NCBI GenBank assembly: GCA_902627325.1
Contig: CACOIM010000009.1
Location: 1-47,243, forward strand
DNA: 47,243 nucleotides
Origin: an uncultured Prochlorococcus sp.
GTDB taxonomy: Bacteria; Cyanobacteriota; Cyanobacteriia; PCC-6307; Cyanobiaceae
Reading direction: 5' to 3'
The notes below the pieces were generated by a model that was given only the letters and a program-made list of their open reading frames with translations, was not told where the DNA came from and did not search any database. Both the position numbers and the translations under genes were made by a program. This document shows, piece by piece, positions 44,143-47,243 of this stretch; within the stretch, counting starts at the first letter, position 1, and every line of letters starts with the position of its first letter.

Positions 44143-45336
44143 ATGCAAAGCGGACTTAAAAATTTTAAATATGATTCTCAAATTGTTTCTCATTCGTTAG
44201 TTTCTTTAGACCCAACTCAGAGAGCCTGGATTGAGGTTAGTGGGAAATCAATAGAACATAATGTTAGAGAAATTAAATCATTGTTAAAAAATGGCTGCCA
44301 ATTTATGGCAGTTGTTAAAGCTGATGGATATGGTCATGATGCGAAATTCGTATCTCAGAATGCAATTAAAGGAGGTGCTGATAAGCTTGGGGTCGCAACA
44401 TTAAAAGAGGGTTTATCTTTAAGATCAGAGGGAATAGAAGAACCAATTCTTGTACTAGGAAATATATATACGAGAAAGGATTTATTAATTTGCTTCAAAA
44501 ATAATTTAATGCCCACTATTAGTGATATTGAACAATGTATTATTTGCGATGAGATAGGGAAAAAATACAAAAAATTATTTTATATTCATTTGAAGATTGA
44601 TACAGGGATGTCTAGGCTTGGGTTTGAATCTAAGAATTTTGTTCAAAGTTTTGGAAATATTATTTCGTTTGAGAATATTAAAATAGATGGTATTTATAGT
44701 CATCTTTCAACTGCTGATGCTTTAGATGCTTCACATGAAAGTAGTTATGCAAATATACAGCGAAGAACTTTTCTTCAATTGCTTTCTGATCTCTCAATTA
44801 AAAAATATCCAAATATTAAAATTCATTTAGCAAACTCAGCCGGTACATTAATAGATAATGATTTCCATTTTGATATGGTAAGAGTTGGATTATGTATGTA
44901 TGGATATAAACCTTCGCAATATCAAAGCCATTTAAAACTTAAACCAGCAATGTCGCTTAAATCAAAGGTTAGTTTTATAAGAATAGTTGATAATAATGTT
45001 GGAATAAGTTATGGGAAAAAATTTATAACAAGCAAAAAAACTAAGTTAGCGGTTATTAGTATTGGTTATGCAGATGGAATTTATAGAACGCTATCTAATA
45101 AAATTTCATTGATACATAACGGGAAAAAGTATCCTCAAATTGGTTCAATTACGATGGATCAACTAATGATTGATATCACAGGTGCAAATGACATAAATGT
45201 TGGGGATACTGTAACACTTTTAGGCAGTGATTCAGGTCAATGTATTTCGCCTGTTGATTGGGCTGATGCTGCAGAAACCATACCTTGGGAGATTCTATGT
45301 GCTTTTAAAAATAGATTGCCTAGAGTTCAAATCTGA
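44143..45336 (+). CDS. alr: Alanine racemase
   Basis: A 397-aa PLP enzyme that interconverts L- and D-alanine for peptidoglycan. The PLP lysine is K59 in FMAVVKADGYGHDA; IDTGMSRLGF and the second catalytic Tyr, about Y290, in VGISYGKKF are conserved, as are IGYADGIYR and ITMDQLMIDITG. The N-terminus has about 25 residues before the domain, so the true start could be slightly downstream. It is followed after 64 bp by tRNA-Ser and then by the foreign region. Confidence 0.96.
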   Translation: MQSGLKNFKYDSQIVSHSLVSLDPTQRAWIEVSGKSIEHNVREIKSLLKNGCQFMAVVKADGYGHDAKFVSQNAIKGGADKLGVATLKEGLSLRSEGIEEPILVLGNIYTRKDLLICFKNNLMPTISDIEQCIICDEIGKKYKKLFYIHLKIDTGMSRLGFESKNFVQSFGNIISFENIKIDGIYSHLSTADALDASHESSYANIQRRTFLQLLSDLSIKKYPNIKIHLANSAGTLIDNDFHFDMVRVGLCMYGYKPSQYQSHLKLKPAMSLKSKVSFIRIVDNNVGISYGKKFITSKKTKLAVISIGYADGIYRTLSNKISLIHNGKKYPQIGSITMDQLMIDITGANDINVGDTVTLLGSDSGQCISPVDWADAAETIPWEILCAFKNRLPRVQI

Positions 45337-45400
45337 TAGACATTTCGATTAACTAAAAAGTTTTGTAGGTTTGCCCAAAAGTTGATAACCTATTATTAGT

Positions 45401-45489
45401 GGAGAGGTGGCTGAGTGGTTGAAAGCGGCTCCCTGCTAAGGAGTTACAGGAGGTAACTTTTGTCGAGGGTTCGAATCCCTCTCTCTCCG
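45401..45489 (+). tRNA. tRNA-Ser (anticodon GCT), probable integration site
   Basis: A complete 89-nt class II tRNA. The acceptor GGAGAGG pairs with TCTCTCC, discriminator G. The anticodon loop CTGCTAA gives GCT (reads AGC/AGT). It has the long variable arm of tRNA-Ser and a T-loop GGGTTCGAATCCC. CCA is not encoded. The sequence changes in character directly after its last base, the usual situation where a tRNA 3' end serves as an attachment site. Confidence 0.96.
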
Positions 45490-45530
45490 TACCATTGAAG
45501 ATTCAGGAAGTTCTATAAGGTTCTAAAAGC

Positions 45531-45691
45531 GTTGGTATAACTGAAAAACAATCTGATTGATGTTTTACTGGGTTCCATGAGTATTCAACCATTATGCAAT
45601 ATTTGTTGTTGGTAATGTTGTTGGTATGCAAAAGGTAAGATATTCAATATCCCAATTATAGTAATGGTTCTCAGGAAAAGTGTTGTTGGTA
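45531..45691 (+). repeat. Direct repeats GTTGGTA x4 (TGTTGTTGGTA x3)
   Basis: The 11-mer TGTTGTTGGTA occurs at 45604-45614, 45616-45626 and 45681-45691, and its core GTTGGTA also at 45531-45537, all in one orientation. The first two full copies are 12 bp apart, about one helical turn. This resembles iterons or the arm-type sites of a tyrosine recombinase, and the position next to the tRNA 3' end favours the latter. Confidence 0.6.
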
Positions 45692-45795
45692 GACTATTAT
45701 TTTACAAATCAAAATAATCAAACCTAGTGTTTGCAATGTTTCTTAGGATTGAGTGGTTTCAGAAATGGTGGAAATTATAAGTCACGCGACTGCAT

Positions 45796-45823
45796 GCACT
45801 CTGACACGCACTCTTGGCACTCT
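45796..45823 (+). repeat. Direct repeats GCACTCT x3
   Basis: GCACTCT lies at 45796-45802, 45808-45814 and 45817-45823, with unit spacing of 12 and 9 bp, in a locally G+C-rich segment that also holds ACGCG twice (45784 and 45842). It is possibly an iteron or operator cluster. Confidence 0.55.
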
Positions 45824-45835
45824 GGTATGTCCTAT

Positions 45836-46015
45836 GTGCGTACGCGTTGTCTAAATGTATAAAATTGCTGTGTAATTATATCTCTAAGATAATACTTGAA
45901 AAACTGTGAGAATGTAGTGATTGCAATGGATTATACTAAAATTATATGGTTACGCGTAAACAATAAAAATGTACGGAAAAATGGGGGTGCGTTTTGCGTA
46001 GATGCTGTCTAAGTG
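45836..46015 (+). repeat. Two imperfect copies of GTGCGT...TGTCTAA
   Basis: The first copy (45836-45857) reads GTGCGTACGCGT then TGTCTAAATG; the second (45987-46015) reads GTGCGTTTTGCGT then, after a short spacer, TGTCTAAGTG. The palindrome TTACGCGTAA (45950-45959) lies between them. Such CG-rich words are rare in the surrounding A+T-rich genome. Confidence 0.45.
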
Positions 46016-46063
46016 GGTTTCCTAACATAAAAATTTGTAGAGATATTCAAAACACTAAATAGA

Positions 46064-46101
46064 TATACATCCGACACATGACAAGATCGTTGGGATGTAT
46101 A
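46064..46101. repeat. 9-bp perfect inverted repeat with 20-base loop
   Basis: TATACATCC (46064-46072) and GGATGTATA (46093-46101) are exact reverse complements around a 20-base loop, about 146 bp before the candidate Rep gene. It could be an operator for a dimeric repressor such as the downstream RHH proteins, or a stem-loop nicking site for an HUH enzyme. Confidence 0.55.
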
Positions 46102-46246
46102 GAGATACAAGTTTTCAGTCATAGTGGGACTGTTTGGGTACTAATCTTTATATCAACGGTGATGAATATGTTCTTTCCTAATAACCAGTAAGAGGTGGTA
46201 AGAGCGAGGTGTGTCTGGATCTGACTGATAAATCGCAAATCAAATT

Positions 46247-46957
46247 ATGTTCAAGACAAAGATACAGGATAAGGTCAGAGATCATCTCATCCAGAAGTGT
46301 GATTTCAACTGCTATGCACCTGACTACTTATTATCCATAGACTACTTTTCGGACTACTCAAGACAAGAGATCCAGAAGAATCATAAGTGGATTACTAAAG
46401 TAGTGTCTGATGTGTTCAATCCTTATGATAGGAACCCTATACTATGGGGATTCTTTATTGAGAAGGGTAAGAAGACTATCAAGAAGTATGGTAAACAGAC
46501 TGTATTCAATACTATTACTGAAGGTTATGAACTAGATGATGATATTGAGGTTGTAGATGGTACTAGGCATACACATGCATTGCTATCACTACCTTATGTT
46601 GACTTAGGTAAACCCAATAAGAATATGAGGAAACTGTGGAGACACATGTTCTATGACATAGGTGGCAATCCACCACATTGGATGTTTGAGGATGGCAATC
46701 AATATGAACTAAAACTTGAAACCCTAGAGTTTGCAATCAAAGACAGGTGTGCAAACTTTCTTGGTTCTGGTGAACAAGCACTTGATATCCAAACTGTTGA
46801 TAATAATCGGCAGTTTGATGGTACATGTGCAAGAGGATGGCACGGTGCCTTGCACTATGTCACCAAGCAGATCAAGGAGCAAGATGACTGGTACGAGGTG
46901 TTTGATGATATCAATTCTAATGTTCTTGATAACGACCCAATAGTTTTACAACCATGA
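46247..46957 (+). CDS. Putative HUH-type replication initiator/relaxase-like protein
   Basis: A 236-aa protein not recognised from any named family. It shows, in order, a strand-like NPILWGFFIEKG (about 63-74), which could be motif I; RHTHALLSLP with H108-x-H110, like the metal-binding HUH motif; then a predicted strand LDIQTV followed by GWHGALHYVTKQI with Y204-x-x-K207, like the catalytic YxxK of rolling-circle Rep proteins. The HxH-YxxK spacing (about 95 residues) is longer than usual but filled by helical sequence. The middle residue of HxH is Thr, not hydrophobic. An in-frame TAA at 46229 supports ATG 46247. Its stop overlaps the next gene (ATGA). The function is inferred from motifs only. 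Confidence 0.5.
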   Translation: MFKTKIQDKVRDHLIQKCDFNCYAPDYLLSIDYFSDYSRQEIQKNHKWITKVVSDVFNPYDRNPILWGFFIEKGKKTIKKYGKQTVFNTITEGYELDDDIEVVDGTRHTHALLSLPYVDLGKPNKNMRKLWRHMFYDIGGNPPHWMFEDGNQYELKLETLEFAIKDRCANFLGSGEQALDIQTVDNNRQFDGTCARGWHGALHYVTKQIKEQDDWYEVFDDINSNVLDNDPIVLQP

Positions 46958-47145
46958 CAGAAGACAGTTCAGCACAGAGATTATCCCTTTATGTGTCACG
47001 TAGGAATAAGAAACACCTACCATTGATCCATGAGGTGATGGAAGAATACGACTTGAATATGACAGACACCTTTTTCAAATTATTGAAAGAGAAGCATGCT
47101 GATATTCAGAATAGAAAACTACGTAAGGAACTAATAGGAGTCTGA
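46954..47145 (+). CDS. Small ribbon-helix-helix-like protein
   Basis: A 63-aa protein: a short polar start, a strand-like QRLSLYVSR, then two predicted helices (KKHLPLIHEVMEEYDL and TDTFFKLLKEKHAD) and a basic tail RKLRKELIGV. Strand-helix-helix in under 70 residues fits RHH (CopG/Arc) DNA-binding proteins, which often control copy number or rep expression. It overlaps the candidate Rep gene by four bases and the following gene by one (TGATG), so the three form an operon. Confidence 0.45.
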   Translation: MTEDSSAQRLSLYVSRRNKKHLPLIHEVMEEYDLNMTDTFFKLLKEKHADIQNRKLRKELIGV

Positions 47146-47243
47146 TGTCTCAATCTACTGTGTATATCTCATCTACTGCAAAACAACAACTTAGAGAGAT
47201 AGCAAGAAAACATTTCACCAAAGAATCTCAAATTTTAGAGAAG
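47145..47243 (+). CDS. Second RHH-like small protein (cut by window edge)
   Basis: Thirty-three codons are visible before the edge. The strand-like STVYISSTA is followed by a helix KQQLREIARKHFTKESQILE, the usual opening of an RHH protein. A Shine-Dalgarno AGGAG lies just before the ATG, which overlaps the previous stop. The total length is unknown. Confidence 0.4.
   Translation, partial: MSQSTVYISSTAKQQLREIARKHFTKESQILEK

Follow-up and report, generated by a model that had tools for sequence, protein, structure and literature searches.

The window analyzed here, the whole stretch of 47,243 bases, is an entire contig (C9) of an assembly that is 60% complete and comprises 53 contigs. Near its right end, the core genes give way after tRNA-Ser(GCT) to 756 bases without a credible gene, and these are followed by three overlapping genes, the first two sharing 4 bases and the last two 1 base (Table 1). 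The ORFs overlapping positions 45491-46246, gene 1 excepted, are all at most 43 aa long. With the tRNA included, 45337-46246 (910 bases) is the longest stretch of the window lacking an ORF of at least 60 aa; the second longest has 333 bases. The three genes also differ in codon choice: the two complete ones have a GC3 of 0.39 and 0.41, both above the maximum of 0.281 among 37 mechanically chosen core ORFs of at least 150 aa (mean 0.213, sd 0.028). Plain GC content is less telling than GC3, as 12% of the core 1-kb windows match the GC-richness of the last 1 kb. The abrupt passage from dense core genes to noncoding DNA and a foreign operon, which an earlier note had described at this tRNA, is thus borne out.

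Table 1. Positions of the features around tRNA-Ser(GCT) and in the adjoining element (window numbering)
Feature	Position	Strand	Remarks
alr (presumed; named by eye)	44143-45336		precedes tRNA-Ser(GCT)
tRNA-Ser(GCT), integration site	45400..45490	+	intact; ARAGORN 45400-45490, Rfam 45401-45489
last 18 bases of tRNA-Ser(GCT)	45473-45490	+	correspond to attachment-site repeat
TTGTTGG pair, 12 bases apart, probable integrase arm-type sites	45606..45624	+	starts 45606 and 45618; offsets +116 and +128 from tRNA
third TTGTTGG	45683..45689	+	65 bases further in; offset +193
conserved block CCTAGTGTTTGCAATG	45723..45738	+	upstream of origin-like block; read by eye; also in AG-442-M23, AG-670-O13, AG-347-K19, AG-347-L19
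origin-like block, hairpin (CAGTC/GACTG stem, 7-base loop) between conserved arms	46104..46147	+	in 4 of 266 genomes, all beside gene 1 family
gene 1, 236-aa putative replication initiator	46247..46957	+	HUH-like motifs E72, H108-T-H110, Y204-x-x-K207; profile searches negative
gene 2, 63-aa small protein, ribbon-helix-helix-like by eye	46954..47145	+	all five relatives have a homologue; Pfam gave nothing above cut-off
gene 3 start (33 aa, open at contig end), second small ribbon-helix-helix-like gene	47145..47243	+	by eye resembles the full-length 51-aa protein of AG-347-K19

Among known RNA families, only the tRNA was found in the noncoding stretch, plus one antisense match below the gathering score inside the tRNA. 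PADLOC matched no defence gene in 7 proteins. The contig ends inside the third gene and hence cannot show the far end of the element; a search of the window's own assembly, 60% complete, yielded neither an integrase nor the flank on the distal side. The names alr, HAD-type, flavodiiron and NodU-like, as used in this text, are presumptive.

Complete relatives at the same tRNA gene

Homologues of gene 1 were found in 5 of 265 other genomes of the genus, all Prochlorococcus, with 40-60% identity: AG-442-M23 (G061), MIT 9314 (G010), AG-670-O13 (G054), AG-347-K19 (G165) and AG-347-L19 (G133). Two peptide patterns run against a collection of 84,980 species returned the same five carriers and none outside Prochlorococcus. 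A sample of 400 genomes of the family gave three matches in Prochlorococcus, one of them the window's own genome, and a doubtful one in another genus (E 0.0097); among 388 genomes sampled from the class, nothing but the window's own genome matched.

Three of the five homologues (AG-442-M23, AG-347-K19 and AG-347-L19) sit at the same alr/tRNA-Ser(GCT) junction, in complete elements of about 5.4 kb (5457, 5384 and 5384 bases, respectively). Read from the tRNA, all three contain a noncoding stretch, gene 1, two small genes, a 99-aa gene and a 122-aa gene; beyond these, the opposite strand carries one or two short genes followed by a serine recombinase gene, a tyrosine recombinase gene and an AlpA-like gene. 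The 122-aa gene, which the window ends too early to include, was found in 5 of 266 genomes, and these are the same five that carry gene 1. The 51-aa protein of AG-347-K19 has homologues in AG-347-L19, AG-670-O13 and MIT 9314. Compared with AG-442-M23, the noncoding stretch of the window shows long insertions, with no more than 61-65% matches in the two 100-column windows after the tRNA.

The tyrosine recombinase of AG-442-M23 matches phrog_1 (E 2e-26) and scores 26.6 bits against Pfam PF00589, just below the cut-off of 27.1. Its position at the distal end in the relatives, together with the contig end, explains why no integrase is seen in the window. Matches to this recombinase occur in 23 of 266 genomes, several of them near tRNA-Ser and tRNA-Asn genes. 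A serine recombinase is also present in many of these recombinase loci (L045-L062).

Both ends of the complete elements can be read. AG-442-M23 carries an exact 18-base copy of its own tRNA 3' end at the distal end, adjoining the AlpA-like gene; in AG-347-K19 and AG-347-L19 the exact distal copy has 12 bases. The bases that follow the distal repeat of AG-347-K19 are those found directly after the tRNA in element-free genomes. Such empty sites, in which a presumed HAD-type gene ends 35-40 bases from the tRNA, make up at least 11 of the 30 tRNA-Ser loci compared, these being the best-scoring 30 loci of 61 genomes with the window's own included and 3 of the 30 ending at contig ends; a twelfth (L090) is very likely empty. 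The remaining loci have extra DNA between the tRNA and the HAD-type gene, or reach the end of the stretch or contig. Together with the rarity of gene 1, these empty sites answer the objection that all close relatives might carry the same sequence at the alr/tRNA-Ser locus.

The short repeats that the earlier note had seen in the noncoding stretch are real. The three TTGTTGG copies have identical offsets from the tRNA (+116, +128 and +193) in the window, AG-442-M23, AG-347-K19 and AG-347-L19, and a pair 12 bases apart is also found near the distal repeat in all three complete elements. A similar TTGTTGG spacing occurs in G043, where a recombinase 56% identical to that of AG-442-M23 is accompanied by other genes. 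The set was absent from the other 29 tRNA-Ser loci (L068-L096). Because the spacing is constant at either end of elements whose recombinases are related, the TTGTTGG repeats are probably the arm binding sites of the integrase.

Some further observations were made at this tRNA. A TCAGGAAGT-like motif was seen by eye 10-20 bases after tRNA-Ser in many occupied loci (L067-L096, L044-L063) and not in empty ones; in AG-442-M23 and AG-347-K19 the motif and the distal end make up an imperfect inverted repeat. The motif is possibly a core recombinase site of the whole element class. A T in place of C in the tRNA acceptor region was considered as a mark of integration and rejected, as the same T occurs in the element-free loci L068, L073, L076 and L091. 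Another tRNA-Ser(GCT) element, the one in G043 (L044, 9343-18955), has different inner genes. A gene that by eye we take for a NodU-like carbamoyltransferase lies at the tRNA-Ser site of AG-442-M23 (L011, 11702-14115), outside the element, and at that of G108 (L063, 9787-11655), where it adjoins a broken recombinase.

The claim of the earlier note that the tRNA-proximal end of a tRNA-anchored integrative element lies here therefore stands: complete relatives occupy the same site with tRNA-end repeats, a distal tyrosine recombinase and base-exact empty sites. The second copy of the tRNA-Ser end and the tyrosine recombinase that the note proposed to look for were both found, in the relatives; the window's own assembly yielded neither the recombinase nor the distal flank. 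We infer that the unseen far end of the window's element resembles those of its relatives.

Recent movement, a proposed module exchange and a second integrase

The elements of AG-442-M23 and AG-347-K19 are 97.5% identical from the AlpA-like gene through the serine recombinase, whereas three stretches of their host flanks are 73.5%, 76.0% and 79.9% identical. Hence the element moved recently relative to its hosts. With recombinase ends that are near-identical and host flanks that are only 73-80% alike, the pair illustrates cleanly how an element has recently moved at a tRNA site of a streamlined marine bacterium.

Similarity between these two elements is not uniform. As matches per 100 columns, with gaps scored as mismatches, it amounts to 92-100% over the tRNA and the arm sites, is only 26-66% over the origin-like region, gene 1 and both small genes (37-57% in 11 of the 14 windows) and rises again to 91-100% in the 99-aa and 122-aa genes. 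The drop over the stretch from origin to second small gene is as expected if a replication module had been exchanged as a unit. Similarity dips again from the end of the 122-aa gene across an intergenic stretch and the short gene that precedes the serine recombinase; variation is therefore not confined to the proposed replication module.

In MIT 9314, the cassette lies in an element of 4370 bases between two presumed flavodiiron-type genes. This element is bounded by an imperfect 22-base repeat (18 of 22 identical) at the end of a flavodiiron gene. Its tyrosine recombinase of 502 aa has no significant similarity to the 426-aa one (BLASTP E 1.3); both match phrog_1. The site was uninterrupted in five of the six relatives compared, which represent six of the eight non-self flv loci. 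In the sixth (L110, G008), about 545 bases are inserted at the MIT 9314 site; they resemble the element ends to some extent and may be what is left of an element, or a smaller one. The MIT 9314 locus yielded no homologue of the serine recombinase, which is hence not part of the minimum. Upstream of the cassette in AG-670-O13, a 481-aa protein (L015, 8331-9776) shows tyrosine-recombinase-like motifs by eye. PHROGs and Pfam gave no confirmation of a recombinase for this protein; thus we claim only two integrase types.

Gene 1 and the origin-like block

Gene 1 resembles a replication initiator at the level of motifs. E72, H110, Y204 and K207 are invariant in all six homologues, the latter two forming a YxxK arrangement for a putative catalytic tyrosine, and the order of E, H and YxxK is as expected for an HUH initiator. 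The HUH motif itself reads HTH or HSH in two of the six and GTH in the other four, in which the first histidine is replaced by glycine; H110 is kept throughout. Searches of Pfam, PHROGs and NCBIfam with gene 1 gave no match passing the cut-off or an E-value of 0.001, the best Pfam match among the homologues being PF23343 in AG-442-M23 (E 0.076). Solved structures gave only chance-level matches (best E 0.62). Two structure models are of low confidence (mean pLDDT 47 and 39), and their order of strands and helices fits an HUH initiator weakly. From these motifs, gene 1 is a likely but unproven replication initiator. Homology to VP4 of the Gokushovirinae was rejected: hhalign P was 0.41-0.42, not significant, both with three sequences and with a larger profile of 68 viral-locus proteins plus the phiMH2K query.

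For the small proteins, likeness to ribbon-helix-helix proteins is seen by eye. The Pfam profiles gave no ribbon-helix-helix family in eight small proteins, and the matches listed were unrelated and below the cut-offs. The labels that the earlier note had attached to this operon thus fared alike: Rep agrees with the invariant residues of gene 1, ribbon-helix-helix with the appearance of the small proteins, and both stay provisional as neither profile searches nor, for Rep, structure prediction confirmed them. A role of the 63-aa protein as a regulator of copy number or of the operon is possible.

About 100 bases ahead of the start codon of gene 1 lies the origin-like block of about 44 bases. 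Its stem varies in sequence with the pairing kept: CAGT/ACTG in AG-442-M23 and GCAT/ATGC in MIT 9314 and AG-670-O13. Shuffled spacers attain such stems in 0.07-0.5% of trials. The search pattern was built from the four known copies, which it matches by construction; the informative part is that it occurred nowhere else in the 266 genomes (the reversed control gave 0 matches). Four of the six carriers of gene 1, the window included, have the hairpin-bearing block, and it was not recognisable in AG-347-K19 and AG-347-L19, whose gene 1 least resembles that of the window. Thus the origin-like block, as identified by its sequence, is linked with gene 1.

Interpretation and comparison with known systems

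We interpret the end of the window as the left 1.75 kb of a small integrative element that is inserted by a recombinase and may replicate from a candidate origin with its own initiator; we put the probability of this reading at roughly 0.78. The element is foreign and anchored at a tRNA, it is tycheposon-like in plan, and it contains an unusual candidate replicon module. The distal tyrosine recombinase, helped by the AlpA-like protein, would insert a circular form into the 3' end of tRNA-Ser(GCT), with the TTGTTGG repeats at both ends acting as arm binding sites. As the element brings the same 12-18 bases with it, the tRNA is not disrupted. After excision, copying of the circle would start at the hairpin-bearing origin beside the 236-aa initiator and would probably follow the rolling-circle mode; regulation would fall to the small proteins encoded downstream, and the resolution of multimers to the serine recombinase. 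No capsid or terminase was recognised among the nine proteins of the AG-442-M23 element, nor was a conjugation gene; transfer would therefore need a helper, for example a phage particle or vesicles. In pattern-limited scans, gene 1, the 122-aa protein, the recombinase and the origin block were all without a match in IMG/VR contigs, and gene 1 also matched nothing in 50,697 phage records or 72,556 plasmid records. Thus transfer is unsupported by viral contigs, phages and plasmids.

A further-reaching proposal, which we make tentatively and at somewhat less than even odds, is that what we see here is a native Prochlorococcus replicon in its integrated form, with a new initiator family, its own hairpin origin and small regulators, whose self-contained module is swapped between near-identical elements and between elements with unrelated integrases. 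A substantial possibility, though one we would bet against, is that the integrative element is the same but is copied only with the chromosome. Gene 1 could then encode a nuclease or a different protein that binds DNA, and the hairpin block could serve as an operator or form a structured leader on its mRNA. Leaders and operators commonly lie some 100 bases before a start codon, as the block does; the lack of profile matches above cut-off for gene 1 and the small proteins and the missing first histidine in four of the six homologues also agree with this. The invariant E72, H110 and Y204xxK207, however, fit an HUH initiator, as does, weakly, the strand and helix order of the two low-confidence models; moreover, where elements are otherwise alike, the block differs between them in step with gene 1 and the small genes.

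It is rather unlikely that the element is a phage satellite that excises upon infection, replicates by its own initiator and is packaged by a cyanophage. The small gene set recalls minimal satellites such as the PICMIs (described in an excerpt of PMC10803314), and tycheposons are listed among proposed satellites in a passage of PMC11389934, but the lack of a recognised capsid or terminase gene and the negative scans of IMG/VR and the phage records speak against it. That the locus is a decayed remnant of a genomic island without mobility seems improbable: completeness is not demonstrable for a copy that runs into a contig end, yet the visible genes are open, neither their overlaps nor the spacing of the arm sites has been lost, and hosts that have diverged carry elements which hardly differ along much of their length. 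So fragmented an assembly might conceivably contain a chimera at 45489/45490; we reject this, as three other genomes show the same junction and the same repeat offsets.

The actinomycete AICEs, e.g. pSAM2, are integrative elements that replicate by rolling circle. The plan proposed here is similar in combining site-specific integration at a tRNA with a putative Rep-type initiator; unlike in AICEs, no conjugation gene was recognised in the Prochlorococcus element. In rolling-circle plasmids of the pMV158 type, a CopG-like regulator lies beside RepB. The small putative ribbon-helix-helix gene adjoining a putative initiator of about 230 aa resembles this arrangement, whereas the reversed gene order, the integrated state and the negative search of plasmid records do not.

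Tycheposons carry a partial tRNA copy at their other end and a recombinase from a deep-branching clade. Those of Prochlorococcus (Hackl et al., Cell, 2023) reportedly have seven anchor tRNAs. The elements described here share with them the tRNA at one end, the partial tRNA copy at the other, the tyrosine recombinase and a size inside the range of 4-200 kb quoted in a passage of PMC10872708. They differ in being only 5.4 kb long, in that no nutrient cargo was seen and in that the cassette of origin and initiator also occurs with a different integrase at a protein-coding gene. The reference list of PMC12416821 includes the primary tycheposon paper, and a passage of PMC10187409 mentions 'cryptic elements' in the primary tycheposon source; part of the present element family may therefore already be listed there. 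The integrase islands of picocyanobacteria in the same passage of PMC10187409 are also similar in their tRNA site, in having a tyrosine and a small serine recombinase and in occurring in Prochlorococcus, but they use tRNA-Phe and tRNA-Cys and have an integrase group distinct from the tycheposon ones. PICMIs of Vibrionaceae have a reduced gene content with excision and replication functions according to the excerpt of PMC10803314 and are, by this description, likewise integrated elements with little beyond these functions; they are reported to depend on phage particles.

Among the titles retrieved on Prochlorococcus rolling circle, tRNA integrases and islands or satellites, none concerned such a module. 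According to a paper from 2020 (PMC7523629), wild plasmids had not been found in association with Prochlorococcus, and replicative plasmids are usually built on the origin of a wild plasmid of the host or on a broad-host-range origin. What is unusual here is the candidate replicon module: an origin-like block and a putative initiator form a compact unit that recurs in elements whose integrases differ, and this unit is a concrete candidate for an origin native to Prochlorococcus.
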